From: a virus | IMG/VR virus record: IMGVR_UViG_3300042691_050360 | Span: 102,523 to 166,522 of that record | Strand: one strand, 5' to 3' | Length of the DNA: 64,000 nucleotides | Part shown: piece by piece, positions 10,848-54,500 of the stretch | How the letters are laid out: every line of letters begins with the position of its first letter | Position numbering within the stretch: the first letter of the stretch is position 1 | Made by a program: the position numbers and the translations under genes | Notes under the pieces: model-generated | Database searches by the model: none | What the model was told of the DNA's origin: nothing | The model's input: the letters and a program-made list of their open reading frames with translations, nothing else

Positions 10848-13800
10848 ATGCCAGATCCATATGAAAATCCAGATGTCACACCGTGTTTAGGCACTTACAC
10901 ATGGGTTCCCACCACGCCACCAAATTTTGGTGGATTTAACTTCACCAGGGGGTTTTCAAGTCTTATAATAGACAGGGGGTCTTTCAGGAACTATTGGTAT
11001 AAAAATCTTTTAGAGAAAAACATTCTAGTCAGAACCTTTTCAGATAATACCTCATCGGGATCTCCATATAATCCGATAAAAAACTCTACCAGGTCACTAG
11101 CATTAGGCTTTCCTGTAAAGATAGGAAATGGAGACAATGTTGCAATATCTGAAGTGAAAAGTGAAAGTTTAATAGAGTTTGATTTTCTCACTGACAGTCA
11201 GAAGAGGCTTTCTTGTATTCAAATTAATTATGATTTATCTGTTTTTGCTAATGATGAGAATTATAATTTTGATCTAAATCCCCCGGTTCCAGCTGTTTTG
11301 GTTTATGGCAAAACCTCTTCTGGTGCTGAAGAATTAATAACAACAGATGTTTTTAAGGGCTTGAATTTAACCAGAACCAGGAGCACCTTAAATGAATCAA
11401 ATTTAGTATCCGCAAATAATTCAGGCTCGCCAGATTCCGGCCCATATTTTGTTAATTTCAAAATAAAGATAAAAGAGGAGATCCTTGACAGATCTAAATT
11501 CCCTCAGTACAAAAGCGTAATTTTTAAGATAAATCCAGCTATTGTATCATTGCCCTCAAGCTTGGTTTTTGTTATAAAAAACATAATGTTCTTTACTGCA
11601 GATCGTGTTAATTTTAGGTTTGCGGCGGAGTCAGATCAATTGCCATGTAAGGCCCTTGGTTACTCGATGGCGATTGACGGAACTTTTTTTCCAGCACTTG
11701 CACTAGGGGCTTCATTGGCTTCAGCCGCTGGAGGAGTTCTTTCAGGAGTTTCAGTGGGCACAATGGGTTTATTTATTTGGCCATCGATCTTACCTGATAA
11801 TTGCAACATAGATGTGAAATTATTCAATCCCGATTTCATATCTAATTCACCAGGATTTGCTCATTCATTGAACCTTCATTTGTATATTTTCACTATGCCC
11901 GTTTTTGGGCCACTAGGTGATTTTTTACTTCCGGGAGTTTTACAGCCTCATTTTGGCGTAATATTGGGTCCAAAAAGCTTTACCCAGCAATGGATTTTTT
12001 ATGGAAATAGCAATAATAACAATCTTCAACTGGCGGTAATGAACTCCGCATTGTTCAAGAAAAATTCGGGCTTGGTGACATTGCTACAAGGAGAACAAGC
12101 CGTTGGAGAGGTAAAACAAATTCGACCCTTGGTCAGTGGTTTTTCTTCAATTGTAAAAAATCAACCTTACTATGAACAGCTCGGGGTTTCAACTACCGGC
12201 GGATTTAAAAATGATTATGTAGATGAATTTGGTATTCAGAGTCAATCTGAAACATATAATGGATCAGTTCCCCGCCTCACTCCATTCACGGCACTGGAAC
12301 CAGTGGCAAATTTCCCGAGAACCTCAAAACAACAATTCGCTTATTCAACATTTTTGTTTGAAACTGAGCCCGATTTATTTAATTTGTTTACAGAATCTGC
12401 ACCCTGTCTTTTGTTTAAGTGCTCAAGTTCATCAGGGTTTTCTGATAGCATATTTATAGAGCCAGGATTTTTATATGCATCTTTAAATTGTTTCTCAACA
12501 GATGCCTCAGGCATGTTTGACACTAAATTAGTTTACAGATTCTTTTTAGTATCTAAAGACGCCACTCCAACACCCACCGATCCATTAACTAAAACAATAA
12601 AGATACAAGAATCTGGAACTAATGATTCTTCTATAATAATTGAGCCAGTGGATCGCTCGTGGGATTTTTCAAACACACTGGTTACAGGAAATATAGTTGG
12701 TGATCTTAATACGGTAGAGACAGCTGAGATTATAAACCAGTCTCTAAGAACATTCAGTCCATTTGATGGCAAGCCTTATGATCTTTATTGCGGCGTTTAT
12801 GCTATGTCAAGCTTGAATGACAGCTTTTCTGGCTATGATTTAACAAAATATTCAACATTAGACTTGCCAACTGTTACTTTTTCAATCAATAATGATTTTA
12901 TCATCCAACTTCCAATTTATTACAGAAAATCTTATGCCAATGGCGGAACGCTGCAAGCACAAAGAGATTTTGGATTAAAAGGGCGATATACTTCGGATAA
13001 ATTAAGCTACACAATTATAACAGAAAAATACAACGGAAGTCCTTTTTCCGGGGGTACTTACAGCGGTAGCATAGACTCATTCGACGGTGTAAGCGGTTTG
13101 CTCACTTTTGTTGAAAGCTCCACTGCACCTTCTGATAAAACAAAATTTTCAATACAAGCCGGCGAGAATATTACCGAAACAGATTATGTCTTATTGGTTG
13201 AATCCACCTCCAATGCAAGAATTAATTCAGGGGAGTGGGTTTTAAGTTTTAGTGCGGACGTTAGTGCGGGCGGTTCTAACATTGAAGCTAAATTTGAAAT
13301 TGATTTGGTTGACAGAAGGAGTTCCAATTTAATATTGAAGGTTTTAAGCAGTGAGTTTCAGCCAATTTTTGCGTCAGTTGGTGACTCGCCTGCTTCAAAG
13401 ACTTGCACCGCCAATATCACAGTTCCCTTCTTTCTTCCGCAGAGCGAGGGTTTGTTGGTTGTAAGAATACTATTCAGAAATAAAACAGCTTCCTTAGCCA
13501 CTGTTTCTGTTGATAAAATCACCTTAGAAGAGAATACTCTTGAACAATTTAGTTTTATACCTCAGCAAATAAGAAATTATTTAATAGGATTTTATGAAGA
13601 CTTGCCAATTCAGCCCGATTCTTTTGTTTCAGGTTGTCAATCATTCATACTAAAGCTTGATATGGGCTCTGGAACGATCATATATGATCCGCAGAAGGGC
13701 CTCAGTATTACAGGCGTGATCTATAGCCCCACTTGGGCAGTGGATTTGCCGGAGAATATGGAGATTCAATACAATGCCACTCAAATCAACAAGAGCAGAA

Positions 13801-18810: not shown

Positions 18811-18966
18811 ATGAATAATTTACCGCCATATTCATCCCTCGCGGCGGAGTTAAAAATAATTCCTCAAAACACTCATTCCGTGCCCCCTCCCCCAAATGTG
18901 CTTACCTACGGTCAATCCATTTGGGGGATTGGAAAGATTATAGAAATTTCTGAGCCTCAAGTATGA
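18811..18966 (+). CDS. Small proline-containing protein (51 aa)
   Basis: I choose the ATG at 18811 because GAGAGGAGA, a strong Shine-Dalgarno sequence, lies 5-6 nt before it. An in-frame ATG at 18754 would add 19 residues but has no ribosome-binding site. The product contains VPPPPNVLTYGQSIWGIG and ends EISEPQV. Its TGA overlaps the ATG of the 1679-aa gene, implying coupled translation. It may be a small accessory or assembly factor for that protein. The family is unknown. Confidence 0.55.
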   Translation: MNNLPPYSSLAAELKIIPQNTHSVPPPPNVLTYGQSIWGIGKIIEISEPQV

Positions 18967-21900
18967 ACGAAACTCCAATTTATCAATTAGGTTATTTTGT
19001 CCCCAATATGACAATGGGTAATAATCTCGATATGGACAAAAATCGCTTCACCACGATTGAAAATCAACTCTACAATGTTTATAATATTTTTGGAAACGGA
19101 ATTCTGTCTGTTTACGATTCTTCCGGTCAGCAAGTTTCATCTTGGGTTTTGTCGTCCGTTCCAAATGAAAGAAGTGTTCAGATTTCTTCAGGCAAGGGAC
19201 ATATAGCCTACAAGTACACTGAAACTACATCTGCTGAGAATATTGACTTAATTCTCCCAGGTGGCACCACTTCGGGAAGTTTTTGGTATTATTTATACGC
19301 CACACCCAATCTGCTCACTCCCACGGAAAAATCTGTAACATTTCTAGCCTCTTTAACGCAGATATCAGATCCTGTGAATTATATTGGCCTTGGAGCCGCG
19401 TTTTTATATATCAACCCATCCGATGGATCTTTCACAGTAACAGTTTACAATACATCAGATTACGGCCGACAGGAAATTTCATTATTTGCCTCCTTAACAA
19501 GTTTGGTTAAAAACCACGTTCATATAGGTGGGCCAAATAATCCATCCCCTATTGACCTTGGCAAACATGTCACTGGATTTCTTTCTTCAGAAAATATAAG
19601 CAACATTGATTTAAATAAGGTTACATCTGGAACATTAGATCCTAACCGACTCCCCTTAATAAATCATAATTCTTTAACGGACATTGGAACTCTTACGCAC
19701 GATCAGATTGATTCGTTGCTCGCGGCTTTGCAATATCCAGGGGCTAATTACAATCTTTCTGATTATGGAATTGTTAATCGCCTTCAAATAATCTTGGCAT
19801 TAAAAAAGCAATCTGGTTTTTTCAACATTGACGGTGAGCAGCTGAATTCTATTTTTTACCTACCATACCCTCAGTTGGAAAATTTTGTAGATAGAGCTAA
19901 TACCACTGCAGTTGTCAATAATGAAATTCACAGAGTTTACGGCGTTACGGGGCTTGCTAGACAATCAAACATTATTAAGATCAACACCACTCAGGATTTC
20001 AATACCGCATTATTTTACGCGGAAGACTCTGTTATAAATCCTCCTGTTTCTAACATCCAAGTTACAGGTGTTACTACCACATCATTGGCGGGGACGATCA
20101 ATATGCCTTACGGCTTAACTGGTTCAGCAAGCACAATTTATGTCTCAAGCTCTCAAGATTCCTATGTTTCCTCTTTCAGCACTTCTGGCACATTTATAAA
20201 CAGGAGAATAGATTTTGATCCCAATTTGAATCTTAACTCACCGCTTGGACTTTGGTACGACAAAGTTTCTGGTTATCTTTATATTGCAGACACATTTAAT
20301 CACCGAATTATCGTCACCGATTCAACCTTAACCAATCTGATAGCGAAGATAGGTGCCAATGACGCTTCTGGCATGCCAGGGCCTGGTTCAGGCAATGGCT
20401 TCAATTTTCCAAAGGGGGTTTATGGAATGGGAAATACTTTTTATGTTTCTGATTCCGGCAATAATCAAATTCAAAAATACATATGGCAATCTGGTAATGC
20501 AAATTGGCAACGAACATATCAATACTCTGATGGTACAATTTTCGGTCTTAACCAATCATTGAGTGATCCTCGTGGATTGTTTGCCACATCTGTGGGAACT
20601 CAGAATTTTCTTTTTGTTGCAGACTATAATAATCACAGAGTTTTATGCGGAATTGAGACTAACAATAGCTATAGCGTTTATCAGGTATTGGGGCAAAATT
20701 CAGCTGGCTTTGGGATCTTCAACACTAACCTCATCACATATGATGAGTCTCTTAATGTTGTTGGAACGGGCGTGGCGTTCACATTTAATAACACCATTGT
20801 TGGAACCATATCTACCATTGGGGTGGCAAATTCGGGCGTTAACTATTCAGATTTTGATACTTTTATTGTTTATTATAACGGAAACAACAATGGACTAATT
20901 AATGTTCTTACTGACGGTGCTGGGCATATCACCACAGCTTTTGTTTCATATGGATTTTCAACAACAAACAATCTTGGCTTTGATCACCCACAGGGTATAG
21001 CTTTCACCCAAATGGGCACAAATCTTAATCTTCTAATCACAGACACTGACAACAATCGAGTGGTTAGCTATAATGCATCTTCTGTGGGCGTAGGCACCAC
21101 TAATAATCAATTTAATTTTGGCTATACGTTCGGCACCGCAGGAAGTTTAAACGACACACCATCTCTTATTTACTTTAACAGACCAACTGGTATATATGCA
21201 CAACAGGGCTTCGGCACGGTTTTTGTTGCTGATAGCTTGAACAACAGGGTTCATGGACTAACTACAACTTTTACTACATTCTCAACATCGTCAATTTCTT
21301 CGCTATCTACATCTATTTTTGGAGTAGGAGATACTTCGCTCACTAGCGGAGGAATAACACTAACTCAACCTATTGGTTATGTTGGCATAGCCACTCCATC
21401 TACTGGCTTTGTTACTCCTCCCAATTGGTTTGTCGGCGAGCAAATATCTCAGGGTACACAGGTTCAGGCTGATATAATCGCCAGATATTCATATGTAACA
21501 TTTAGCACGAAAACATTTGACATCCAAGACACAATCGCTGTGGCAATCGGCACAATAAATGAATCAGCTAACCAGAACTTAGGTCAGATTGGGTGTTATT
21601 TAGTTTTTGATGACAATTTTAGCGATGGAACAAAAATAACATTTTCGCTAACTAATAATTCCGCAAAACCAAGCATCAGAATATCAAGCATATTTACTTT
21701 GCGACAGCAAGGCTTAACAAACAATCAGCTATTTAATTTCGTAGCTCTGTCTAATTTCACAACTCAGCCAAATCCATCCGTGATTGGATTCGGGTTTAAG
21801 TGGAGTACAGAAACTGGATGGGCAAATAGTGACATCCTTCAATTAGGTTGGTATCTGCCGGAATTTGATTCAAATCTTCTTAGGGTATCATATCCCAAAG

Positions 21901-24002
21901 TTCTGAACTACAGACAAAAATATGGATTTAAAAATAGCATCTTTGCATTCAATGCAAATCGTTACTCACCAACTGGAGTATTTGTTTTCAGGTTTGATTC
22001 CGGACTAAGCGGGGGAACTACATTTGATTATGGAAGTTTTATCTTTGCAAATCCTGTTTCCGCTGGTGGTGCATCTTCGATTCAATTTTATTACAGAACC
22101 GCTAATACACTCCAGGAGCTGAACACTTCTGGACAAAAAAATCAGATATTTCCAGTTTCGGGCGGAAGTGCTTCCATAAATGCCTCTGGTAGATTCATAG
22201 ATTTACTCTTCTATTTTAACGCATCTAATATTGATTCATTAGCAGCACCTGTATTGAGTAGCATTTCGCTTTACTATACGGTTTTTGGATCGGCAACAGG
22301 CATTATTTATGACACAAATGTTAACAATGCACCAGCTGGATCTTACCCTAGATTTAAATGGTCTCAGGGATCTCTTTCAAATATAGATATACTTCCCGTT
22401 CCAGGTGGCAATACACAATCTTATCAAATTGAGATATCTAATACTGAAAATCTCAATAAATACACATTCTTGTCTGCAAATAATTTGCAATTTGCTTCAG
22501 GTGATAATTCAAGTGGATTCGTTGATATCAATAATAATTTCTATCTTTCACCATACCAGGCTTTTGCCGGCCTTGAAAGTGGTCTTCTTAGCCCCCAGCA
22601 TTACGTTGCAAACAGCTCCAACGGATATTTCATAGCAGACACGGGCAATGATCGAGTGATAGAGGTGGATTCTGATGGTTCTATAGCAAGGGCGATCCAA
22701 GGCAATATTACTCTTCCAAGATGTGATCGGGCTTTTGCGGTTCTGGGGGCTTTCTATAACCAGAACACCAAGCAGCTCTATGTTCCATTTAGCCAGTACC
22801 TCTTTTTGCCCAATAGCTATCTTCAACAGCTGGCTATTTATATAAACGGCGTATCATATAATCTTTCAAATTCCGCGTTCTTTGTGCAGACTGACACCGG
22901 GCTTTTTGCTATCAATTCGAATAATCAATCTTCTACTTTTTACGCCACAGCAACCACCGCTATGGATGCGATAATCGGTGAGTATCCTGATGATATTAAA
23001 TTCCAGATACAAAATCCCCAACAAAACCCTCCATTCCAGGTTCCAACCACGGGCAGAAGTGATGGAAATGAGCCAGAAAATGAATCAATAATTTATGACA
23101 ACATTACATTCTCTGAGTTTGTTTCAAATAGAAATCAGGGAATTGGAACTGTATTGAATTTTGAAAATAACATTACAGAGGTTGTAATTGATCCAACCAC
23201 ATTTGGCACGGCTGATGCAACAACAACCGTTCTGTGGAGCTACTGGCAGGGTAATAATCAATTCCCTAACTATTCCACATTCTACTCAATTCCTGTAAAT
23301 GTATTCCCAATTTATTTTGACAATATTTTCAAGCCCTTACATCTGGATTACACAGAAAGCGAGACACTTGTCGTCTCAACTGTTGGCAACACTGCAGTCA
23401 GGGCGTATAATAACTTGTTCGAACTTGATTATAAAATTAGCATTGGTAATTTCAATTTTAATGAGAAGCTTGGCGGATCAACTGTTATTCTCGACAGGGG
23501 TGCTTTGGAGCCAGGTAATATTCTTCTAGTTGCAAATCCAGGAATAGGGACTACTACTATTATTGGAAATGTTTTTGTTTACAATAGAAACACCGCGTCT
23601 TTAATAAATAGATATCAGTATGAAAATCTTGATGCAGTTAAGGCCTATCCAAATAATGATAACTACCTTGTTCTATTAAATGACAGAATTGGTAGAATTA
23701 GATCTAAGCTTATAGAAATTAGCCAAGACGGAACAAATACATATTCTCTGTCTAACATTTTCACAAGACCTGTTTCTTTGGATATTCAAGAAAATGGCCT
23801 TTTTTATGTAACTGATATTACTGGGCAATATGGAAATATTTATTTCCGGACGTTTGTCGGTGATGGTTCAGGAAATTCAACAGGTCAATCAGGTGGCCCT
23901 TCTGGCGGTGGATCGGGCGGAAATACGGGTTCGCCTCCTGGAGGCAATGCAGGTGGATCTCTCATCGGTGGTGGTGGCGACGGAAGGGCATTATCGCCTT
24001 AA
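18963..24002 (+). CDS. Giant tail protein with NHL propeller (1679 aa)
   Basis: The N-terminal ~190 residues form a baseplate-attachment-like module (YFVPNMTMGNNLDMDKNRF ... IENQLYNVYNIFGNGI) ending in a KNHVHIGG element. The same module begins the 3066-aa protein. Residues about 376-767 hold at least six NHL-type blades, for example PLGLWYDKVSGYLYIADTFNHRI and PRGLFATSVGTQNFLFVADYNNHRV, with a further one near 1215 (GYFIADTGNDRVIEV). The C-terminus is Gly-rich (GGPSGGGSGGNTGS). NHL propellers bind ligands or partners in known proteins. Here I infer a host-contact fibre or baseplate component. Confidence 0.75.
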   Translation: MNETPIYQLGYFVPNMTMGNNLDMDKNRFTTIENQLYNVYNIFGNGILSVYDSSGQQVSSWVLSSVPNERSVQISSGKGHIAYKYTETTSAENIDLILPGGTTSGSFWYYLYATPNLLTPTEKSVTFLASLTQISDPVNYIGLGAAFLYINPSDGSFTVTVYNTSDYGRQEISLFASLTSLVKNHVHIGGPNNPSPIDLGKHVTGFLSSENISNIDLNKVTSGTLDPNRLPLINHNSLTDIGTLTHDQIDSLLAALQYPGANYNLSDYGIVNRLQIILALKKQSGFFNIDGEQLNSIFYLPYPQLENFVDRANTTAVVNNEIHRVYGVTGLARQSNIIKINTTQDFNTALFYAEDSVINPPVSNIQVTGVTTTSLAGTINMPYGLTGSASTIYVSSSQDSYVSSFSTSGTFINRRIDFDPNLNLNSPLGLWYDKVSGYLYIADTFNHRIIVTDSTLTNLIAKIGANDASGMPGPGSGNGFNFPKGVYGMGNTFYVSDSGNNQIQKYIWQSGNANWQRTYQYSDGTIFGLNQSLSDPRGLFATSVGTQNFLFVADYNNHRVLCGIETNNSYSVYQVLGQNSAGFGIFNTNLITYDESLNVVGTGVAFTFNNTIVGTISTIGVANSGVNYSDFDTFIVYYNGNNNGLINVLTDGAGHITTAFVSYGFSTTNNLGFDHPQGIAFTQMGTNLNLLITDTDNNRVVSYNASSVGVGTTNNQFNFGYTFGTAGSLNDTPSLIYFNRPTGIYAQQGFGTVFVADSLNNRVHGLTTTFTTFSTSSISSLSTSIFGVGDTSLTSGGITLTQPIGYVGIATPSTGFVTPPNWFVGEQISQGTQVQADIIARYSYVTFSTKTFDIQDTIAVAIGTINESANQNLGQIGCYLVFDDNFSDGTKITFSLTNNSAKPSIRISSIFTLRQQGLTNNQLFNFVALSNFTTQPNPSVIGFGFKWSTETGWANSDILQLGWYLPEFDSNLLRVSYPKVLNYRQKYGFKNSIFAFNANRYSPTGVFVFRFDSGLSGGTTFDYGSFIFANPVSAGGASSIQFYYRTANTLQELNTSGQKNQIFPVSGGSASINASGRFIDLLFYFNASNIDSLAAPVLSSISLYYTVFGSATGIIYDTNVNNAPAGSYPRFKWSQGSLSNIDILPVPGGNTQSYQIEISNTENLNKYTFLSANNLQFASGDNSSGFVDINNNFYLSPYQAFAGLESGLLSPQHYVANSSNGYFIADTGNDRVIEVDSDGSIARAIQGNITLPRCDRAFAVLGAFYNQNTKQLYVPFSQYLFLPNSYLQQLAIYINGVSYNLSNSAFFVQTDTGLFAINSNNQSSTFYATATTAMDAIIGEYPDDIKFQIQNPQQNPPFQVPTTGRSDGNEPENESIIYDNITFSEFVSNRNQGIGTVLNFENNITEVVIDPTTFGTADATTTVLWSYWQGNNQFPNYSTFYSIPVNVFPIYFDNIFKPLHLDYTESETLVVSTVGNTAVRAYNNLFELDYKISIGNFNFNEKLGGSTVILDRGALEPGNILLVANPGIGTTTIIGNVFVYNRNTASLINRYQYENLDAVKAYPNNDNYLVLLNDRIGRIRSKLIEISQDGTNTYSLSNIFTRPVSLDIQENGLFYVTDITGQYGNIYFRTFVGDGSGNSTGQSGGPSGGGSGGNTGSPPGGNAGGSLIGGGGDGRALSP

Positions 24003-24012: not shown

Positions 24013-25884
24013 TTGGCAGTTAACTTCAAATATGCTAAAAACGCTTTTCAAGCTTACAGTTTTACACCCAGTGAACAATCTGTTTTTAATGAATTCCCTC
24101 GTTATTCAATAACTTTCTACGACGATCAGGATTTTAAGTTTAAGAGACAATCTGTAAATGGTAAATCAGTTTTATCAAAAATCATCTCAGATGATTTTTA
24201 TCCTTTCAATCTATCTTATGAAGATAGAACAAATTACATATCTGGAAAAAGTAATGTATTAAAAGTATTTTTTGCTAAGATACTTGTTTACAAAACAATT
24301 ACACAAGATACTGTTGGCCAAACATCTAATGTTTTTTACCTGACTAGAACACAAACACTAGGCAACTCGACAACCCTGTATTATTCCGTGAGATGCATTG
24401 AGAAAAATTCTCAGTACACCGTGTATTCTTCTCGGATTTCTTTAAATAATTCAGATTTTGTGAATCAGTTTGACGGAGAAGCCTTTTTCACACTCGTTGG
24501 TGACTTTTCGGTAAACCTTGAGTATCCAATTAGTTTAACCTTACTGGACGCATCCACAACAAGCATTTTCATGACAACTACAACGCCCATCCTTAACACA
24601 ATAGATGCTAGTGTTAATAGTTTGAATTTTTACGAGAATGTCGTGGTGAATTTTGATTATTATCAATATTCAGATTCTTTTGATTATAATTTTGAGCCCC
24701 TTAACCTTACCCTAACTACTGAAGTTTTTTCGTCCAGCCCAAACTTGTACACCACTAACACAAGCGGAGGCACATCTATTAGATTTAACTTCTTTGAAGG
24801 ATATCCTGTATCTAACTTAACAAACTTTGCCCTTACCTTGACAAATGCTTCTGTGGGATATAATCCAAATACCGACACACTATTTACATTAACTTTTAAA
24901 TTCAGCAATGGAGATTTTATTTCAGTAAACGCATGCGAAATATTTAATAACTTCCAGAATAATTATTACAATATAGTTTTTAACTTCAGTGATGTTATTT
25001 GGCCCGATAATTTTATAAATTACTTTATACTTGAGATTAAGACGCTCGCTATATCTGTAACCGAGCCATACACGATTACTTATTTGAATTTTGTAAAAGA
25101 ACAGAGCAGTGTTAGTAGCTTTTCTTTTAAAAGCTTCTCAACACAATCTGAAGCTTCAATATACACATACAGCCCTGTAAAAACAAAAATAGATATAGAC
25201 AGCCTTGAGAATCAATCTTTAGTCCTTGGTAGTGATATTTTTTCTATAGTGGACACAGTATTTAAGATTAAAGATGATTCGAATTTTCAAATAACCACCC
25301 AATCTGGATCTGTTATTCTTCCAGAGTCTGCGTTGCTGAAGTCAGAGAATATATATATTCCTGTATTCAATCTGCAAAAGGGCACTAAAATAAGAACATT
25401 AGATTCTTTTGAGAGCATTACATCCATTAAAGTTCTTTCACCAAGCTTCATTGAAATGATAGACACTTATGCAGAAGAGGATTATTTCATTAATGGTTTT
25501 TTGGTTAAAAACCCATTCTTCACAAAGTCTGTAGAAAGAAGAATTTTGACTAAAAAGCAATATAATACAAATCTTGATAAGATTGAGATTGATCAGAATC
25601 TCATCCCGATGCATAGCGATGGTCTTTTTAGTTTCTTGAATAAAGAGCTTTTTTTCAAAGAAAATTTATCTAGCGAAATTATTGTTCATAGCCAATCCGC
25701 TTCCACCTTCAAGGCACTGATCGCATCTTCAGCTCCAGTCATAATGGAATACGATAAAAATGTAAAATTATTTAATAACAAAGAGATTATAGAAATAAAA
25801 TTAAAAAATGATTTAACCCCGATAATCTTGAAATCTACAAAGAGTTTCTCAATTAAAAAACTTTTAATAACCAATGAATTTTAA
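24013..25884 (+). CDS. Virion protein with partial Hint-like segment (623 aa)
   Basis: The TTG start at 24013 is set by the AAGGAGAG before it; an ATG at 23830 would overlap the upstream gene by over 170 nt. Residues about 17-180 and 235-370 align in motif order with the start of the next protein ([12 protein letters not shown] versus [27 protein letters not shown] versus [15 protein letters not shown]), so the two genes look like tandem paralogues. Residues about 440-500 (LPESALL ... [12 protein letters not shown] ... [13 protein letters not shown]) resemble the second half of a Hint domain, without the N-terminal Cys block. It overlaps the next gene by 11 nt. Confidence 0.65.
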
Positions 25885-28800
25885 TCTAGCTAAGAAGAAA
25901 GAAGGAGTGGAGCTCACATTCGGAGATCATGCCGTATGTGTTTTTGTAAACTCAAATCTTGTTGGCGAAAATATGATTATCTCAGATCGTGTTTCTATTT
26001 TAGCTAAGGAAGAATTAGAAAAAATAACATTTGATCTTTCAAGCACTGAATATGACATAGTAACACTGAGGTTCGATAAGGTTAAGAAAATCAAAGAAGG
26101 ATCTTACTATGTAGAAGTGGCAACGGGGCTGATAATAATCGAATGCGATAAAGCCTCTTTAATTTCGGATAAAAATTTAATCCTTAGTGTAAACGGGACG
26201 CTATCTATTACTTTCTCTGCTCAACAGAAATCGTCATCCGCTGTTTCAGCTTTTGCTGCTTCATTTTCTGCTTCTTCATTTTCGGCAGCATCATTTGTTT
26301 CGGAGGGTTTTTATGAAAAAAATCTACCATCGTTCTCTATCACATTTTATCGAGATTTTCAAAATGGTGAATTTATTGATAGATTTGATTCCTATAAGGA
26401 CCGTCAAATAATTAGCTCAAATAGTCCTTCGCAGGAACAAGCTGTATCTGTTTTTGTAAAAGTCATTAGCCACTTCTCTGACGAACTCGCCGCCGGAACA
26501 GTAAATCAAAATTATAAACTTGCCATATATTCTGATTTCTATACGAACCCAGATAATACAAGATATGCAGCTCTCACCAAGGTTATCAATACCCCGGAAG
26601 GATCTGTGTATTTTAGTTTGCTCTCCATCAACGCCGCAAATTATATAAACTTTTTTGACGGCATCAGAGAGTGCAGGGTTGAGGTTGAAAAATTTGTTTT
26701 CCAAAACACAATTAGTGTTCAGGCTAATATTGCAGGCGGCCCAAGCTCTCCCCCTCCCTCTTCTAATGTTAACGCCGGCCAGGACACGCTGACTGCACTC
26801 CCGTCACAAGGCTGTTGCTATCAGTTTTTAACTCAATTTGTGTCGCCACCTGGAACCGAGCCAATACCTTCATATACTGCTTCTTGGCCTTTGCTATCTT
26901 GGCAACTTGACAACGAAGGTTATTTATACGACTATTCAATTCCTGAAACCACAACTAATCGAAAAACCACATTCCCGTCTAGTGCAACAGCACCATACGA
27001 AAATGGAAATTATTATGCCGGAATAAACGCTAAATATGATTTTACAAACTTTGATTACAGGAGATATAATTGGATTTCATTATTTTTTGTTTCATATTCT
27101 GATATCCAAAACGCAAATTTTAACCCAGATACATACATTCTGGAATTCAATTATTTTTATGATGGGCTAAATCAGCCCGATGCATTTTCTGCATGCGGAG
27201 ATGAAGGTGTGATCACATCTTTCGTGAACTCTGACGTATCCGATGGAGGTCTTTATAACACCACATGCTATGGCCTTCAATATTATTTTGATTTTGCAGG
27301 TAATTTAAGATCCGATAAAATTCTTACAAGTTTTGAAGCTAGATTGAAAAAGATCACATCCACTTTTCCAGACGAATTCAGATTGTATGATTTTAAGATT
27401 TTTTCAATAAGTTGCTCTCCTTTACCCACTCCATCTCCAACACCCACGAGTGTTCCGATGGTTATTGAAAGCTACGATATAACTTCAACCAATCCGCTAT
27501 CTGTAAGAATGTTAAATCAGCCAGCTGACAATAATTTAGTTACCTCTGGAACAACTCAGTATACATTGAATTACAATTCTGGCTCATCTGTTCAGATTAC
27601 AGCACCTGTTAATGGATATTTCGTAGATCGAATAACATACCAAGCCGCACAATATACTTTTAATTATTGGATAGTTAATGGGTCAGCCACCCCAAATTAC
27701 AATAATGTTCAATCATTGAGCATTTCTTCTTTGGATTCAAATCTTTCCGCATATTATTCCAAAACACCCATCACCCCTGGTGTTCCTCCGCCTCCCACCG
27801 TCATATTTAACATAAAGGCGTTTGATCTAAATTCAGGGCACCCACTAGAAGCGGGGGTGTTCTGTTCGCCACAAGATCTTAATAATACTTTAACTTTTGT
27901 TACAGAAGCTAATTTAATTTATGCCTCTTCTCTAGTAAGCACAGCAACAATAACCACAAATAGTGGTACATACAGGGATTTAGCAACAGGAAATCTTGGC
28001 TCATATAATTTTCAATATTGGTCAGTTGATGGCTCGATCCAATACCAAAACACAATCATAGTGCCACTGAGCTCGAATCACAATCTGATCGCATATTTTG
28101 GCACGGGATCTCCTCAGCCCTCTCCGCCCCCTTCTCCACCGCCGCCCCAAACAGGCCTTGATGACTCCTGTTGGCCTAAATTCGGAAAAGATTTGGCTTC
28201 AACTGGTAAGTCAACTTGTAGCGGCACTGGAGGTGTGATGGGCAAAAAGTGGCAATACAGCAATGACTCGGATGGTATTATTGATACTCAGATTGTTGCC
28301 CCTGTAATTGATAAAAATCAAGTGGTGTACTATTTTTATAAAAAAACAAACACATCGCTAATGGCTTTTGTTGGTGTTAAAGATGTAAATAATTCACCTA
28401 GTTTAGTCTTTTCCACCCTTTTCCAGGCGGAGGCAATACAATCTACTCCAATAATTGACAAAAGTCAGCGTGTTTATGCCATTATTGATGCAAAAGTTAC
28501 CTGCTTTAGCCAGCCAACAAACCCATCCGCCCTCAATTCTTCTGTCGTATGGGTTTGCCCTGAGCAAGTTTTTTCAGAGAGCTTAACGATAGATTCATCT
28601 GGCAATCTATACGCTGTATCCTTGAATCGTGGGTTGATTTGTATTGATAAAACAGGTGTAGTTCAGTGGTCGCTTTTCTTCGGTTTTAGTCAAGCAAATC
28701 AAAGAATGATAACACCTTCCTATCTCGTGATAGGAACTAATGATCTGATATATTTTGCTTTCGGTATCCAAGACAGACTAAATCCAGACATATCAGGAGC

Positions 28801-31789
28801 GGTGTTTTACTTAGCCGCTGTTGATTATAATGGTAACACGGCTTGGATTAATGAGATTGGTGGAATTAATAACGATGTTCAAGGGATTTACAAAGATTTG
28901 GTGTTTGTTAGCTCTAATAATAATATAATTCTTGCACACTATCTGACAGAGTTTTTTTATCCTGCAGAATCAGGAGGTAGCGGTTACCCCGTGGTTGTTA
29001 GTTCTTATGATGATAGTGGAAATTTGCGTTGGAAGTTTGGTGATGACTTTAATAGCGGCCTTTTGGTTAACCGCATTAATCAGGGCTCAAATGGTAAATC
29101 AGCTTTTCTTTCGCTCAACAGTGGTTATATATACATAGTAATAAATTATGATGTATACAGCTCGTCCGCAAACTCTGGAGCTATATACCGAATTTCAATA
29201 GACGGGATTTTTAGTATATTTCCGGTAGTGTATTACGCAAACACTAATAATGTTAATTCTGATTTTCTAATCAGAAAAATAGCAATTGATTCATCGGGCG
29301 TGATGTATTTGTCTCCCTTTTCTTTCTTCTTGTCACCATCTTCGCTTTATACGTTTCCTGCTGGTTTTTTTAAACTCGGGGATTATTCTGGTATAGCAGT
29401 ATCTTCCGGCGTTAATTTCATTTTAGAAGCAAATGCCACACTCTATGCTTTAGGCCCTCAGTCCCCGCCGCCACCAACACCTCCATCTGTTCCATCTGTT
29501 CCATCTGTTCCATCTGTTCCATCTGTTCCATCTGTTCCATCTGTTCCATCTGTTCCATCTGTTCCATCTGTTCCATCTGTTCCATCTGTTCCATCTGTTC
29601 CATCTGTTCCATCTGTTCCATCACCATCACCTGTTCCATCACCTGTTCCATCACCATCACCTGTTCCATCACCTGTTCCATCACCATCTCCTGTTCCATC
29701 TCCTGTTCCATCTCCTGTTCCATCTCCTGTTCCATCTCCTGTTCCATCTCCTGTTCCATCTCCGTCGCCAGGCGTCACCCCGGTTCCCCCGCCAGCTCCT
29801 TCTCCGACAGAACCGTCCGCCCCACTGCCATCGGTTCCAGTCCCATTCTCCCCATCTCCGACTGAGCCATCTGTCCCAGCTGAGCCATTCGCCTTTGAAT
29901 CAGCTTTTAGGGCCTCATCTTTTTGTGTTATTTTCGGTACATCGATTAGGTTGTCAGATCAATCTGAAATTCCAATAGAAGATGTCAAGATTGACGACTC
30001 AGTTGTAGGATTGGATGAAAATCTTAATCATTCACTTTTTCAAATTGATGAAATCATCCACGCACAAGGTGAGTCTATTTATAAGATATCATTTGATGAT
30101 AAAAATATTTCTTGTTCAGAATCTCATTGTTTTTACGAAGTTTCTACTCAGGTATTTAAACATGCCTTTGAGCTGAAAACAGGAGATATGATTAAGGGAT
30201 TTGATGCAAATTTTGAAATTACGAAAATTGACATATTACAATCTGAGCCTGTTATTGGGCTCGTACTAAACAATAACGGATGCTACTACACAAATGATCT
30301 CTTGTCGCACTCGCAAAATACTCATCCTTCATTCATAACAAATAGTCTCAAGAACTCCGATAAATTAACACAATCTGCTGTTAAAAACTCAGAGCCCGCA
30401 TTGGCCTCGATTGATTTAGGCTCTCAAATAAATGTTTCGAAACATCGCACTATTAAGGCAAAAGATTTGAAAATTGGTGACACAATCTACGGAGCTTGTG
30501 AGCGAAACAAAAACAAAGATTACACAATAACTGAAATCAAGATAATTAACAATCAAATCGCTCACGCTATATATTGTGATGGATTATGCCTGGAATGCTC
30601 AGAGAATTATAGCGTTTTTTCTTTCACGGATAATGCCTTTAGATATCCTTGGCAGCTTTCAAAAGGAGATTTCATTAAAACAATCAACGGCATAAAATCT
30701 GTTGAAAAAGTTATAGCAAAAGATGTTAAACCAATGGTGTCAATTAAATTGTCCAACGGCGGAACATTATTCGCCAATGGTGTATTATCTCATTGTGATC
30801 TTGTTGCTCCCGAATATAACACGGATCTTGAAAACCCTCCCAAAAACACAATCTTTAGATCTCTTACAGAAGATTCACCGGCATCCAAGTCCTTAATGAC
30901 TTCAGGTGTTGGTTCGGATTCCTTATTGGATTCATCCAAAGCTCGCATTAAAGCCAATGAAGTATCTACTGGAGATACCATTTATGGATTCAATGAATTA
31001 TTTGAAAGAAATCTTTATAAAGTGCAAAACATAATCAAAACTCAGTCAGATTGTGTGGAGATTGTGTTTACGGATGGAACTTCAATAACAATAAGCAAAG
31101 CCTGCCCGATATTTTCTAATTCCCGGAAAAATTTCATCCACGCCTACAAGCTTAAACAAGATGAGTTAATCAAATTTGGATCTGAAGAAAAAACAATCAG
31201 CAACATTGTTGAAAAGAATAATCAAGCTGTTTATTCTATTGAGCTACAAGACAATGTCGGCTTTTTCTCAGATGGTGCATTGGTTCACAATAATGCTTCG
31301 GCTTTTAGCCATGATAAATCTACGGTAGTTGATTTGTCAGAGATTAACAAAATAATCAAACCTGAAATGAAGGCAATGCTCCCCTTATGGAAATACGACA
31401 GCCACAAAGATTGGAAGAAAGCATTTTATTTACTTGATTTCAACTTGGCTAAAGAAGACGCGGGATATTCATTTGGCATCAATGCATTGAGTGTCAATGC
31501 AAGCTTTAAGATCAAAGATCACAGTGCTGAAGTCTTGATGATTAAGATAAATGGATCAAATCCTGTCATGGATTTGAAATTTAATGGCATTAAACTAGAC
31601 AGTGAAATTGAATCATTTGCTTTTGGTAATTCCACATTCTTTTTTGTGAAACTAAATAGTCTTAATTCTACTCTTCCTGACTCATTATTTGAGTTCAAAT
31701 TCAAGAGCGAGTCAGATTGTTTGTTGACTAATTTGAATTTAATAAAATCTGATCAACATCTGGCAATTTTGAAATATTTTCAAGGTTAA
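25874..31789 (+). CDS. Multidomain virion protein with PQQ-like propeller and three tandem Hint domains (1971 aa)
   Basis: Order: N-terminal unit; Ser/Ala/Phe low-complexity stretch (about 120-140); a module shared with the upstream paralogue; two 'bacterial repeat' units (about 534-635 and 642-745, [11 protein letters not shown] and [11 protein letters not shown]); PQQ-like propeller (about 762-1190); Pro-rich repeat (1204-1300); then three Hint units. Hint 1 starts at Cys1351 (FCVIFGTSI), has SESHC in the position of the catalytic TxxH, and ends LLSHS (H1479). Hint 2 ends VLSHC (H1640) and Hint 3 ends ALVHN (H1805-N1806). Units 2 and 3 lack the leading Cys and the block-B His. The family does self-cleavage or ligation. 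I infer autoprocessing of a tail protein by Hint 1. Confidence 0.75.
29483..29769 (+). repeat. In-frame minisatellite coding (PSV)n then P-S-P/V repeats
   Basis: About 15 perfect tandem copies of the 9-mer CCATCTGTT (Pro-Ser-Val) occupy 29483-29617. They are followed by 12-18 bp variants mixing CCATCACCT and CCATCTCCT with GTT codons, up to about 29769. It encodes a stiff Pro-rich linker between the PQQ-like propeller and the Hint units. Near-perfect DNA identity indicates recent expansion by slippage or recombination. Confidence 0.95.
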
Positions 31790-47400: not shown

Positions 47401-48524
47401 CCTTGCCATCCGGTAGAATTCTCGAAATAAATCCCTTTATTGTGTCAAGTAATGTTACGCAATATGTGCCACCAGAGGGCAAGAATGACTTTATCTACTC
47501 AGGAACTAAAATTGTAAGAGAGAACGGGGTTTTTGAGTCTGACCCATATTACGCATCAGATGTTGTGGCCTGGAATCAAATTCAAGTTCTAGCTTTGATA
47601 CCAGGGGCTGTAAGTGAGGGCGAGCATGGCACGTCTGTTACATTGTTTGTTAAAACCGCTTCTAGCCTTGCTGATCTAAATGCGAGAATTTATACTAATT
47701 CTTATCAAGTGAGCACGATCAATAATGGCAATGATTACTCTGCTTCCGTTACTTCAATTTTAGCCAATATTCAAAGCTTGTCAGGAAAGTGGATTCAGTT
47801 TAAGTTAATTCTGACATCTGCTTCTGAGAACTTAACTCCAACGGTTAGAAGTGTGCTTCTAACCTACACTGGAGCTGGAAAATCTGTTTTTGTTACAAAG
47901 ACATTTGATACATCGATTCAATCAACTATAGATCCGTCTCCTCTTATTCGTCGAGGGATTCTCACTGCTAATTTTGTGGCGAATGGCGGAGAGATTGTGT
48001 TTGGTTATACCACAGATCCAAATGATGGTAACCCACTAAACTACACCGTAATCACACCTAATCAGATTTTCACATTACCCGCTCCATCTAGTACAATTAA
48101 GTTTGGTGTAATTCTGAAAACTGCAACTAGCGATCCTTGCTTCTTCGACGAATTTGGCGTCCAGTTAGACCTTGGCCCCAATGACGTTTACTTTATGCCA
48201 CCACAGCCCGCTTTTGAAATACAGCCTTACAGCAATCCTGTAACAGGACTTGCTATAACAGGAGCTTACCAGTTCGTAAATAAAACAATTGGAATAGTCT
48301 CCTCTTACAACTGGACTTTCGGAACGACCTTCCCACTGGGTATTATAACATACTATCCTGCCAATGAAGATCCAACTGAAGGGCCAGCTGCAAACAGGCT
48401 GAATCCTATAGTTGGGTTTGCAAATACTGGGCCATTTACGATAGGATTATTTGTTACTGGCTGGGTGCAAAGTAATGTCTTCTATAACTCAGAACTATAT
48501 ACTAAGTCCTTTATTGCAACCTAA
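44469..48524 (+). CDS. Giant beta-rich virion protein (1351 aa)
   Basis: Starts 39 nt after the 4203-aa gene. The first third is beta-sandwich-like. Residues about 500-780 are propeller-like (FAVVVNGISSYLIVSESTLGVYSNG; LVIGSYDQVKLVGKLYIYNNS; LYVAFAGSMLLYSA) and resemble a segment of the 4203-aa protein (LIIGASKSDQATLYVWDNSK), suggesting module sharing. The C-terminal part has Ig-like strands and a TDPNDGNPLNYTVI segment. No catalytic motif. Its TAA overlaps the next ATG by one base, so translation is coupled. It is likely part of the same fibre or baseplate assembly. Confidence 0.65.
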   Translation: MLTASVSNTNLLIFSSAVITGVNTNLFYVFDNNVFNTISTYSINNTVLTATLSKSVNIDGTVKVNLYRGGITTTVGAYGTSVISVTNSTVFEDNTSPSLMEMIEQNNFNFTSYVFSNFITGITSDANFPTANLTLKRRPPTGKVTINEGFLGPMQVHRFAALSSTVFNIAPLSGASLARYFAFDFNVFGDTIVKELSISINPTSTFSSTANGYFTINQDYFGNPSQVVLAESSVVSLATSSTIYNFTFASPVALSEDRYWFIFNPSIGSEFDLGRPISLPGALSGNLYTTTLKESEDGVLYTNRANFGASFSLTTERGLVIPSVDTIYNQLDEPQNIPVVYGDQTNLNVYTQLAVPVTSHYIQKSILDNQTQVYAVETLIDSTGQNHFDVKGVIKTATETYYSMIANNLTSNVVRFDFYSPKSLTGLRLESLGDYYTKGSQGKILLSATDFMGISTVQVSTSPEFPESGTTTITLPTPLQKYIDNVDYNFGDLGKKFSTIESSVGYPIKRIFAVVVNGISSYLIVSESTLGVYSNGIFSTVFTLSDSVFTSSTVGTNGILLTDTLGKIYNFSDNLVTIIGTVVNIPTASATQLTSSFIGVSTLMDNSSAQARKRIYKLSDGVLAHQTWSTQIPETQITFIYNTSIGLVIGSYDQVKLVGKLYIYNNSILTVLYATYLRPDTAYFSSSTNRLYVAFAGSMLLYSAVTNSKLGSFLDTGVALAGDVVTEITATKASNSIIAVTNYSSYIFNETNFVTTQLSLPGYTADDQQGLLVSIETEDLQLSRNLSTKITQSYSNINFDPLLNGFNSSFVYSAKGYIVFAGVSTGISTSFYIQYPANSLIVSATLEGQNISLENDAFSSTFQPDVPKEFSVSIRGIGITGIGTIALYNGVSTFSPIVGVASFVAPKTMNWYYRTGGTLDVFGFADGSLREANTTELSSNEYKVYARFTDINGLTTYEEQYATDNIYNQIQQQKNNQALPSGRILEINPFIVSSNVTQYVPPEGKNDFIYSGTKIVRENGVFESDPYYASDVVAWNQIQVLALIPGAVSEGEHGTSVTLFVKTASSLADLNARIYTNSYQVSTINNGNDYSASVTSILANIQSLSGKWIQFKLILTSASENLTPTVRSVLLTYTGAGKSVFVTKTFDTSIQSTIDPSPLIRRGILTANFVANGGEIVFGYTTDPNDGNPLNYTVITPNQIFTLPAPSSTIKFGVILKTATSDPCFFDEFGVQLDLGPNDVYFMPPQPAFEIQPYSNPVTGLAITGAYQFVNKTIGIVSSYNWTFGTTFPLGIITYYPANEDPTEGPAANRLNPIVGFANTGPFTIGLFVTGWVQSNVFYNSELYTKSFIAT

Positions 48525-51500
48525 TGTCCAAGTTAACCCCGATCTATAACTTTTTGTATCTTGAAGATGGAGATATCATTTATCCAGGCTATGACCAGGA
48601 TAATATGACCACTGCAGAAAATCAAATTTTCGGAATGTATGACTATCTTGGTCAGGGTGTCATTTCGGGATGGACGATTCATTGGATGGGTTGCACCACC
48701 GACGCATATGTATTGCAACAACGTCAGGCTTTAATTGATGCATATAGAACAGATCCTTTTTCTTATTTAGCCCTTCAATATCAATCTCTTGATTACCCCG
48801 TGACAGAAGATGACTGGAATCAGTGCATTGTGGTAAGCACGGGTCTTGGAATTGTTGGCGTCTATCATGCGGCAACCGAATACCCATCTTTCTTTAGATT
48901 TACTGCAACTGGTCAATTCTATGTATGGGCTGAAAAAAATGTTTGCACGAATACAGAATATCTGTGCTCCATCGTCGCACCTCAATATCCTGATGAAGAC
49001 TATGATTTAACTAATCCAGCGATATATCTTGGGGAAGTTTTCACTAACACGGTGAGCTCAAAAATCACTGTAACTCAAATTATCTATTCAGAGAGGAGAA
49101 GAGAACTTAAAAACGCCCAAGGAGACATACAAAGACTCCTTAATCAAGCCCTGGTTAATCACGTTCATTCTGGTGAAGGTGACATGCCTAGCAAGATTAA
49201 CCTCAACACCAATCTGACGATTAATATAAGTATTGTTGAATTCAGTAATACATTTACTATTGTTTACCCTTCTGGATTTTTAGCTTCAAATTATTCAATA
49301 CCTCAGGTGTTTTTGAATTCAACATTGCTTCTGCCTGAGCAGTATCAAATATCTGGAAATCTTATATATTTACAGAACAGCATTCCCATTTCGTCTACGC
49401 TTCAGATTGTGTATCAGATTGCACCTGGCCCGAATATTTTCATAACTGGAAGTCTTACTCCACCAAGAACCGCAAGAACATTGAGCTTTGATACGGTTTA
49501 CTACCTAACTAATGGTTCCACAAGAACACTGTCTGAAGATCAACAAGAATTTGTGGTTTGGTCTTGGAGCGATGAAGAGTATTCAAAAATTCAAGTGTAT
49601 TTAAATAGCGAAATACTAGATCCGACCACATACAATCTTTATCAAGTAAGTAACTCAATTAATAGCGGAGGGCGATTGCAATTTACTGGCCCGATTTTAC
49701 CATCTATCTCTAACTTTACTGAATTAGATATAGTTGTTAAATTCACTACCCCAAGCTTCCAGGTAGAAAATGAACTATCATCTGATAGAATTAAATCCAT
49801 TAATGCTTCTGCTTTTTCCCGAGGAACAGTTCCAACATCAAGATTGTCTGGATTGAGCCACCTGGGGCTTTTAAGAGTGGATGCTCCGGCGATCATAATT
49901 CCATATAAAAAGCTTTTAGACTCCGGGGATCATATTAGATTTTATCCAGAGATAGATAGCTTGATTCAACACTCTGATTATATTGTTCATGGCTCAGCAG
50001 TTCGATACATAAAGCTTGATGCCGCAGAATCCTCCACGCCTCCGAGAATTCTGGTATCCACTCCAAATGGCTTATACGCTACATCCGATTCCCCTGTTAA
50101 TTTTGAAAAAATAGTTCAACTACCTTGGAATTCAGATAATGGACTTGCTGATGTTTTCTCTGAAAATTATTTCGGGAATTTTATTACCTACAGGTTGCCT
50201 AACTTTGATACACAATCTTTAAACCCAAAAAACTTCTGGGCACTTAGTAAGTCGAAAAACCAATTCACTAATATTCTTTATATTTCTCAAGACTTTGGAA
50301 TTACTTATGCGAAAGTGAACTTGCCGTTTACGAGTGCCAATCAGATTGTGACTATAAATGATTTCATCTACACTGTTGATGTTTTTCAATTCACTACTGG
50401 TTCAGTTATTCTAACTCCCAGACTTGATGTAAGATATGTTTATTACATGGCTTGCACAGATGGCCTCTATACATCTACATTATCTAAAAATCAGAATAAA
50501 ACAAGACCAATATGGACTACTCCATCCAAGAATACAACAGACGCCGCAACTGGCTCAATAAATAAAATTTCTGAAGCTGTTAATGTAGGAACCACAACAA
50601 CAACTTATTCTGGCGGGTTGACGGAAAGAACTTACGTTAATTATAGAAACCTTTACGCGGCTTGTGATGAAGGCTTATTTGTTTTCGATGGAACAAACGG
50701 CTCAATCTTTTCAACAAATTCTACTGAGTACAATGTTGGTGGTGGTGCATTTAATTTTGTTTCTTGGTTAGGATTGGAAAGTTCATCCAATACCATCTTC
50801 GGTGTGATTTGGGGAGACGGTTACGGTATTTATTATTCTAATTCCGGTCAGCAAATTACAACATCTTCTTCTTCATCAAGTTCAACAACAACAACTGTTA
50901 CATATAATCAGCCGCTCACTAATGGCAACTCAAATCTTGTAACGGTGAATTGTGCCACATCGTCTCCTTTAGTTATTACAGATATTGTTACGTTTATAGA
51001 CAACCATCAATTAACGAACGGAGATTTAGTTCTTGTTAAGAATCAAGAGCAACCTAGCGAAAATGGTATCTATATTTGGTCTGTTGCCACACAAACTCTT
51101 CTGAAACAAAGCACCGGCTCCAGTAAAGTTTACGTTTTGAATGGCAATCAATCTGAAACAGAATGGATTGAAATTCAGCCACCGCAGGAAAACCCACAAT
51201 CAAGAGAGTATAAATTGTGGTTTGCAAATATAATACCACTAGAAGCTGGTGATAATATTGTTGACACCAAGCCCAATAATTCTGGTCGATCTGGTTATGA
51301 TAGCTCATTCTTTGTATGCACCACTAAATACATTTATAGAGTTTTTAATTCATCTGCTTCCGGCTATTTGCCGTTAGTAGAGCAAATCAACTGGGATTAT
51401 GAAAATAATGGACTTATCACGGGCATCCAACATCTCGGAGTATCTGATCCAGAAAACGGACTCCTCATCGTTTTCACCGAAAATGGTATTTTCAAATCCA

Positions 51501-54500
51501 CCCCTGCCGCTTTTGTTTATGGCCCCGTTGATGCACTTGGACAATTAATTCTTCCCAATGATTCTTATGTTAGATTCATAAATACTTTCACTACAACACA
51601 AGCTAGTCAAGCTACTGTTTATGATGATTATACTTTTGAAGAGTATACGGGGAAGATTCTGTCCATAGGTTTAACTACTTCAGTCACCTCTCTATCAGAT
51701 GGTAATTATTTAAATCAAAGAGTAAATGCAAGTGGCACCTCTGGGTCTGGTTTAACAGTTGATCTTTCGGTTAAATCAAATGCCATAACAGGCTTGTCTA
51801 TTAACAACCCTGGCTCTGGCTACTCAAACGATCTTTTAGAGCTTTTCACAAATGTAAATGGCACAGAAATAGTCAGACTCCAAAACGCTGTCACCCAGGG
51901 TATTTTTGAGGCAAATGCCGCTTCGCAGTATCTATTATTCAGTAAGCCAGCGGGAGTCAATCCCTCTAGATTGCTTTATGAAACGGAATATAAGACTTTT
52001 TACACAAAGCCTTGGAGTAATTTCCCATTAGTTATTACTAAAATAAATAATTCAATAACAGATTATACTTTTGGATATAATGGCGATCTGGGGCAAATCA
52101 ATTTCACAACATCTGTCCCCAAGCAATATAAAGACTCAGTTACGGTTACGTTAACAAACCAAGGTCAGTATATTTCCGACGTAGGAATTACCCCGCACGG
52201 CGAAGCTTTTAATGTGACAATATCTGATGCGGTACCCGCTGCTGGAATTTCTTCAACTTATGACCCCCTTTCTGCCCCTAATAACTTATTGTTTTTAAAT
52301 AAAATTGATAATACAAAATGGAGCTCAAGTATATCAGTTATTAAGGTTACGGGCCAAAGAGCCCCTACGCCATCTTCGCAATCACAACCTTACACAGAGA
52401 TCATTCAAGTGGGGGTGAGTACACAAAATGGACTAGCCGTATACATAAAATCTAAGCCAACCACTCTCCCTCTTACTCTTGGATCTAATGTTTATGTTGC
52501 AAGACCTTATTCAAATGTTCTTGGCATCGAAGATAAGATTACATTATCTAAATCAAAACTAACTTATCATATGGATTCTGTTAGCCACGCAAATGTTTAT
52601 AATCTTTCAAATGGATTATTAAATGTTGTGCCGGATATTTATGATTATCCTGTTTACCCCAATGAGGTTATCACTGGAGTAAATCGCGGATTACAAAATA
52701 CCATTGCACTTAACAGCTTAACACAATTTGATCCATCCGCAACTTTTATAGGTTACACATTTGGTGTGGATCCCTCGTCTTCAGACGTGGCCGCCGCCCC
52801 CTCCACAATTAATTTGATTCTTGATTTCTCTTACGGCAATAATCCTACATTCGCAACCGATAAGGGCATTTGGCAATATATAAGATCGAATAAATCATGG
52901 ATCAGAGTTGACACAATTGATAATTCTGAGTTGGTATATTTTGCTAATCAAACTCTCACCAACTCCCTTAATCAATCCAATGTGTACGCTGGGACAAACC
53001 AAGGTCTGTATTATCAATACAATGGGTTATATGAGCAGAATCCTCTTTTTGCGGAGCCTTTGCTTAGTATTTCGATGGGGTCTTGGTACACATCAAACAC
53101 CAAAGTCAGGAAGCGTTATGAGGCTTACGGCAAAAGCGATAGCATGTCGTTTGTCTTAAGAACAGAAACTATTGCTACCGGAGAAGTTAATCTTCAAAGT
53201 GATTTCTTTGATGGATATAACATATATTCGATATATTATAATGTTTTTAATCGCTATGATGATAAAGGAAATAAAACAGAGCATCCTGCTATTTATCTTG
53301 CTACAGATAGTAGTGTTTGGGCTTTTACCACAGATGCCTTAACGGGCTCACCCTCTGACCGAGGGCTAGGTCACACCTTGCTTGTCGGACGAGAGATGTT
53401 GGGGGCTAATATAATTAGGAATCCCAATTTGTTAAATCCTGGTTCTATCGGCTTAGCTTCAAAGATATTCACTATCGTTGAGGTTCCTTCGGGTGGAAGA
53501 GCCACATGGCTTGCATTGGGAACGTCGAATGGTGTTTATGTTGTTATTAACTGGAAGCAATGCGATGTAGGCAACCCAGACGGCTTAGACTTCTATCCGC
53601 AGAACTCCGGTAGTAATAACGCAAAGGGGCGTCAGTGTTACAAGATTATAAATAACACGATTGATCCTAGTGGTGCATCTTACTTCATGGCTACTGACAT
53701 AGGCGTGTATAAGTCTACCAATAGATGTTTCGATTGGTCGCCTGTTTCTAAATTTGGAGGACAAGAACTTTCTGTTAGCGACATAACATTCTTCACAAAT
53801 TCCGGCACAGGGTACCTGGTCGCAACTACGAACATAGGGCTTTGGATTTCCGATGACGAAGGTGATTCATGGGTAAAGCTTTCTGAGTATGCAGATGCAA
53901 GCCTTCAGATATTAAATGCACCTACATACGGTGTGTCGCTCGGAGAAACACCCAAGCAAACATTTAGCTCCGTTTCTTCTGGAATAATTTCCAAAGCCTT
54001 TGTGTATTTTAATCCAGTAAATCTATCTGGAATAACCACATTGTATGCATCCATTTCGAATGGCATTGCGATTACGCAATCGCAATCTTTTGTAACTCTC
54101 GGCTCTAGTAGCTATCCAGGAATGTACGGATTTGCATTTACAAACACCCCTTATGTTGCTAACACCTCTTATAGCCTTGGTATTATAACTGGGAACTCTA
54201 CATTCTCTACCCAGATTACTTGGGGATTGTCAAATCTAGATAATCCATTTTCAGGCGGCACTGCTACAACATCTGGTGGGACAATTACAAATAAGGATTT
54301 CTTCTTTAGGATTAACCTTAATACTCCAGCCACTCCTATTGAAACCATCGAGCCTGTTGGATTCTACAATACGAGCTTCCCAGTTGGCTTTGCAAATGGT
54401 AATTGGTCTGGGGCATCTATATCTTCTTCTGGCTATCTGTATTCTAATGTTGGCATCATCTGTAATGTGGTGCTAGATGCATCAAAATCTTTTGAAATTA

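Follow-up and report, generated by a model that had tools for sequence, protein, structure and literature searches.

Three tandem Hint domains in a giant phage protein

A 1971-aa protein of a tailed phage carries three consecutive Hint domains, which differ in the catalytic residues that they retain. Sequence and structural modelling together favour a reading, to which we assign a probability of about 0.55, in which the first domain is an N-cleaving Hint and the second and third are inert, structural duplicates of it. The encoding ORF occupies positions 25874-31789 (plus strand) of the stretch of DNA analysed, hereafter the window, which comprises the last 64 kb of the 166.5-kb virus record IMGVR_UViG_3300042691_050360 (G000:C1:102523-166522).

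Residues 1351-1808 consist of three homologous units of approximately 130 residues each, starting at C1351, at about S1512 and at about residue 1681. The units are 23-27% identical and match one another in two-sequence blastp comparisons with E-values of 8e-18 (units 1 and 2), 6e-14 (units 2 and 3) and 7e-11 (units 1 and 3). We built a profile on 51 full-length viral Hints, of which almost all came from IMG/VR; to avoid circularity, sequences of the window and its relative were left out. It matched units 1, 2 and 3 with E-values of 1.3e-18, 7.9e-6 and 1.6e-9, respectively; 2000 shuffled decoy copies of the array gave no single-domain E-value better than 0.07. Pfam, NCBIfam and PHROGs gave only sub-threshold matches to the units (for example, 16.6 bits for unit 1 and 14.7 bits for unit 3 with Intein_splicing PF14890, whose cut-off is 35.8).

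The AlphaFold2 model of residues 1345-1815, computed with 13 aligned arrays and Hints, contains three separate folds joined by disordered linkers. Its mean pLDDT is 77, values of 80-95 prevailing within each unit and both inter-unit linkers falling below 50; the relative placement of the units in the model is not reliable (pTM 0.38). Foldseek matched the model to the BIL2 domain (6y75), the DnaB intein (1mi8), the bacterial intein-like (BIL) domain 2lwy of Clostridium and Hedgehog (1at0), with target-normalised TM scores of 0.78-0.84, as well as to the gp41-1 intein. The Foldseek ranking does not indicate which unit each match covers, and the strand pattern repeats three times. A profile search of PDB sequences returned the same families. 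Fold (AlphaFold2 with Foldseek matches to PDB Hints) and homology (the 51-Hint profile) both place the units in the HINT superfamily, so that the modelling and the sequence comparisons confirm the triple Hint proposed in the first-pass annotation. Its residue numbering is correct for C1351 (position 29924), the SESH sequence at 1415-1418 and the histidines H1479, H1640 and H1805. The GD-x-I-x-G-type strand that it described in every unit reads DDSVVG in unit 1, and the end that it gave for the array, position 31300 (residue 1809), lies just beyond unit 3.

Distribution of catalytic residues

The 51 reference Hints, a set biased towards intact domains because its members were picked by strong full-length matches, have Cys at position 1 in 50 cases, a [TSA]xxH sequence in the right region in all 51 and a terminal HN in 50. 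The residue after HN is Lys in 22, Arg in 10 and Cys or Ser in another 10 together. Since viral Hints carry Cys1, [TSA]xxH and HN, unit 1 can be described as having kept the first-step set and lacking the last step. This unit (residues 1351-1482; 29924-30319, plus strand), recognised by the profile, by a 41% identical ortholog and by AlphaFold2/Foldseek, has Cys1351 (codon at 29924-29926) aligned with position 1 of the viral Hints, the block B sequence S1415-E-S-H1418 (30116-30127), which is invariant within the CSESHC of the ortholog, and H1479. It has S1480 in place of Asn and ends in LSHSQ; the Asp/His pattern that typical members show in block F is missing.

Units 2 and 3 are degenerate. 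Unit 2 (residues 1512-1641; 30407-30796, plus strand) has Ser1512 at position 1, SENY in block B and H1640-C1641 at its LSHC end. Unit 3 (residues about 1681-1806; 30914-31291, plus strand), identified with the profile, has no recognisable position-1 nucleophile and has lost the block B and block F histidines; its end, G-A-L-V-H1805-N1806-N1807, is the canonical C-terminal VHN of inteins and BILs, and H1805-N1806 (31286-31291) align with the HN present in 50 of the 51 viral Hints. First-step residues thus survive in unit 1 only, and the last-step HN in unit 3 only.

The earlier view that the catalytic N-terminal residues are confined to unit 1 agrees with both the sequence and the structure of the units. 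The same annotation rightly singled out Cys1351 as a nucleophile and noted that unit 1 has no HN, but it missed Ser1512 at position 1 of unit 2 and overlooked the HN of unit 3. Its conclusion that unit 1 is not an intein is supported by the replacement of HN by HS in this phage and in its relative.

A related phage with a single-Hint ortholog

A 71%-identical stretch of the 3066-aa protein led to the one related record detected, the 347-kb viral contig IMGVR_UViG_3300042879_006196. Single-sequence scans of IMG/VR and tblastn searches of deposited phages with the array and the 684-aa and 1155-aa proteins as queries identified no relatives; scans with three ortholog alignments (A3, A4 and A10) returned nothing beyond the same 347-kb record, and no match among genome contigs.

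At the corresponding place, downstream of a homolog of the 684-aa protein, the relative encodes a 1281-aa ortholog (L021:6686-10531) that is 38.6% identical to the 1971-aa protein across the first 645 columns (blastp, E 2e-115). The region conserved between the two proteins corresponds to approximately residues 1-605 (25874-27688, plus strand). The only Hint of the ortholog shares 41% identity with unit 1 and retains Cys1, CSESHC and the unusual LSHSQ ending; the loss of the C-terminal Asn is thus old and common to both phages. A poly-Ser linker precedes this Hint, as VPS-type repeats precede unit 1, and a Gly-rich stretch and a Ser-rich linker stand where units 2 and 3 are found in the window protein. 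By eye, the ortholog also has a C-terminal region after the Gly-rich stretch. All four key residues are identical between unit 1 and the ortholog, an agreement expected by chance with p of about 0.03 at 41% identity and with two orthologs only, so that pairwise conservation by itself is modest evidence. The idea that CSESHC is an exceptionally long conserved run was not supported (longest-run p 0.31).

The relative also has a Hint inserted in the middle of a 317-aa protein (L119; G001:C1:264323-264709). This domain has no Cys at position 1, where Ser is aligned, and ends in VHN.

Divergence of the duplicated units

A maximum-likelihood tree of 56 Hints groups units 1-3 with the Hint of the relative in a supported clade (97/86). 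The end branches of units 2 and 3 (2.43 and 3.0, the latter the longest in the tree) are about three times longer than those of unit 1 (0.83) and the relative (0.78). Units 2 and 3 have evolved faster, which fits a loss of the constraint that would still act on unit 1. Because of these long branches their placement is less sure, and the order within the clade is weak (unit 2 groups with the relative at 83/47); the duplications are therefore possibly older than the split of the two phages. The proposal that units 2 and 3 are duplicates is upheld by their homology, their structure, the single-Hint ortholog and the long branches within a supported clade.

A further, probably fully degenerate Hint lies in the 684-aa protein encoded immediately upstream (25159-25527, plus strand), ends in FINGFLVKN and is conserved in the relative (L021:5977-6345), the two proteins aligning there at E 1e-4. 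When a profile of the 684-aa protein and its ortholog was compared with the viral Hints, hhalign gave a probability of 82 (E 1e-5) for a match over the C-terminal two thirds; the AlphaFold2 model of the region has a pLDDT of 44. These alignments suggest a Hint that has been kept in both phages without any catalytic residue, which raises the possibility that unit 1 is inert too.

Genome context and carrier protein

The source record is firmly assigned to a tailed phage from its gene content: upstream, it encodes a protein matching Mu-type portal proteins (E 2e-9) and a terminase-like ORF, whose match is weak, and the same record gives weak matches to a minor tail protein and a head-closure protein. 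The first-pass annotation had spoken of a phage tail-type protein; the portal and terminase-like genes bear out the phage, and the tail association of the 1971-aa protein is suggested by genome context only. The protein belongs to a run of very long plus-strand ORFs (684, 1971, 4203, 1351 and 3066 aa), and it is probably a giant modular structural protein. Those of the giant ORFs that were scanned against Pfam and PHROGs gave nothing informative, except for NHL repeats in a 1679-aa ORF; for the propeller that the first-pass annotation placed in the 1971-aa protein, Pfam gave no family at E-values up to 1. The N-termini of the 1679-aa (18963-24002) and 3066-aa (48524-57724) proteins look alike by eye (TxxENQ...Y..G.G), which suggests that the two are paralogous giant structural proteins.

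Ahead of the array, the 1971-aa protein has a low-complexity linker of VPS and PSPV repeats (29482-29763, plus strand), encoded by 9-bp and 12-bp tandem repeats that include 15.7 perfect copies of TCCATCTGT, plus others (Tandem Repeats Finder). Such perfect coding repeats are a likely site of length variation. Behind the array lies a C-terminal region (residues 1813-1971; 31310-31786, plus strand), delimited from the sequence, that would be cut off from the N-terminal part if cleavage occurs.

Directly after the giant ORFs is a subtilase gene (57760-58686; Peptidase_S8, E 6e-54), 71% identical in the relative, which is adjoined by a gene for a trypsin-like protease (58679-59299). These two enzymes could also process structural proteins. 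In locus L016, a DUF559 nuclease-like domain forms the C-terminal part of a portal ORF (Portal_Mu; 3-2171), and a minus-strand ORF (11981-12985) carries KAFTLIELLVVIAIIAILAAILFPVFAQAKAAA, a type IV pilin-like signal, near its start. It resembles signals common in Armatimonadota and may hint at the host.

Tandem Hint arrays in other viruses

A survey of 80 further viral Hint loci revealed large proteins with two to four contiguous Hints on ten other contigs, a count that treats an apparently duplicated pair, and a contig retrieved twice, as single entries. Four units are present in L043 (2859 aa), three in L006, L025 and L026, and two full units in L037, L042, L046, L058, L060 and L067. DUF4815 is carried by L043 and L058, phrog_358 and phrog_877 are matched by L043, L046 and L067, and the sequence DPLAQ(T/S)F directly follows the array in L043, L058 and L067. 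The units of these arrays mostly keep all catalytic residues. In several of them, HN is separated from the next Cys by one or two residues (Lys, Arg, Arg-Phe or Lys-Phe).

A tblastn search with three arrays against about 50,700 deposited phages matched mostly inteins of helicases, terminases, portals and reductases, with no evident array of this kind among the matches opened. Several of the top BFVD accessions looked like proteins of Salicola phage SCTP-2. This phage, considered as a cultured example of the architecture, was rejected, since the Hints that pair up there are two separate inteins in a RecA-like protein and the other matches lie within the large terminase. A full-text literature search for tandem or multiple Hint domains, whose coverage excludes most subscription journals, returned no description, and the architecture seems to be little described. 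Its presence on ten other contigs indicates that the tandem Hint array is rare but recurring.

A proposed N-cleaving Hint with two structural duplicates

In the reading that we favour, unit 1 is the ancestral single Hint, placed after a long flexible linker, and very likely retains the fold of a functional N-terminal half-site. Cys1351, aided by Ser1415 and His1418, would attack the preceding peptide bond in an N-S acyl shift, and the resulting thioester would be hydrolysed or handed to another nucleophile. A cut at F1350/C1351, as put forward in the first-pass annotation, is plausible on this chemistry and finds backing in the ortholog and the tree, and the 1350-residue N-terminal part would be cut off or transferred. 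Splicing is not expected, because unit 1 lacks a C-terminal Asn. Units 2 and 3 would be tandem duplicates that lost the first-step catalytic residues and evolved faster, and may plausibly be folded spacers that set the C-terminal domain apart from the cut site. We also weighed a composite active site formed by units 1 and 3 but dropped the idea, since the folds in the model are separate and their linkers disordered, although the relative placement of the units is not reliable.

It is unlikely that the array has decayed altogether, leaving three inert units that serve a long, fibre-like protein as rigid beta modules. Such a role would suit the probable Hint next door that both phages conserve without catalytic residues, and the loss of first-step residues from units 2 and 3, but unit 1 and its ortholog, only 41% identical as domains and both on short branches, agree in having Cys1, SxxH and the block G His. 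We consider it improbable that unit 1 cuts on its N-terminal side (F1350/C1351) and unit 3 on its C-terminal side (N1806/N1807, by Asn cyclisation), and equally so that the array is thereby freed as a block of 456 residues, with the N- and C-terminal parts released unjoined. The separation of first-step residues in unit 1 from the last-step HN in unit 3 speaks for these two cuts, as does the frequency of HN among viral Hints (50/51), and inteins lacking Cys1 can still cleave at their C-terminus, which counts in the same direction. Against this, unit 3 has the longest branch (3.0), has lost its block B and block F histidines and has no counterpart in the single-Hint relative, and N1806 is perhaps a mere leftover of the ancestral HN. 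The corresponding general claim, that the half-reactions of an intein are shared out over an array whose three-domain block excises itself without splicing and leaves two chains, is likewise improbable.

The fate of the thioester admits another outcome, namely its capture by an amine or another surface nucleophile, which would join the N-terminal part to a component of the virion or host. The closest solved structure, BIL2, is a Lys isopeptide former, and the replacement of HN by HS means that the thioester is not resolvable by normal splicing; hydrolysis is nevertheless the simpler fate, and no acceptor or acceptor-binding domain was identified; we consider this capture very improbable.

Relationship to known Hint systems

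The best reading of N-terminal cleavage by unit 1, by analogy, is that it would work like a B-type BIL, or like a Hog domain without the sterol part (definitions in PMC7765530 and PMC7664689). B-type BILs are defined by all intein splicing motifs but the C-terminal one; of these motifs, unit 1 has Cys1351, SESH and the block G His; HN is absent, also from the ortholog, as is the block F Asp. As in B-type BILs, the presence of Cys1 and block B and the absence of a C-terminal HN lead one to expect N-terminal cleavage, whereas unit 1 differs in being part of a tandem three-unit array of a phage structural protein; BILs sit in variable, non-conserved proteins (PMC7765530). The Hog-Hint of Hedgehog (1at0) shares the fold (Foldseek E 4e-5), Cys1, the absence of HN and the expectation of the first step only. 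In the window protein, however, unit 1 is followed by two more Hints and a phage-specific C-terminal region, and no Pfam family for a sterol-recognition region was found in the full protein at E-values up to 1.

BIL2 of Tetrahymena BUBL1 (6y75, 6tmm) is the best profile and structural match and is likewise not a simple splicer, since it forms a Lys isopeptide bond in place of ordinary splicing (PMC8616854). It differs in lying between ubiquitin-like domains and in having C1 and N143, whereas unit 1 has no Asn. Class 1 inteins (gp41-1, Ssp DnaB) share the fold and blocks A and B, but unit 1 lacks HN and a following nucleophile and the array is not in a conserved enzyme. A class 1 intein unites Cys/Ser1, TxxH, a C-terminal HN and a +1 Cys, Ser or Thr in one domain, and an A-type BIL unites Cys1 and HN ahead of a variable +1 residue; the array contains neither. 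Unit 1 ends in HS-Q, the HN-N of unit 3 comes without Cys1 or a block B His, and in none of the three units do Cys1 and HN occur together. The other arrays, from uncultured viruses, resemble that of the window in having two to four contiguous Hints in large viral proteins, some with DUF4815. They differ in that nearly every unit keeps Cys1, TxxH and HN, mostly followed by Lys or Arg, and their carrier proteins are not orthologous to the window protein.

Hint domains are usually described singly; the giant viral proteins considered here carry two to four in a row. Should unit 1 cut, no protease would be needed for the maturation of one of the phage's largest proteins. The array of the window appears to have caught duplicates in the course of losing catalysis while the fold stays, so that the fate of self-cleaving domains becomes directly testable.
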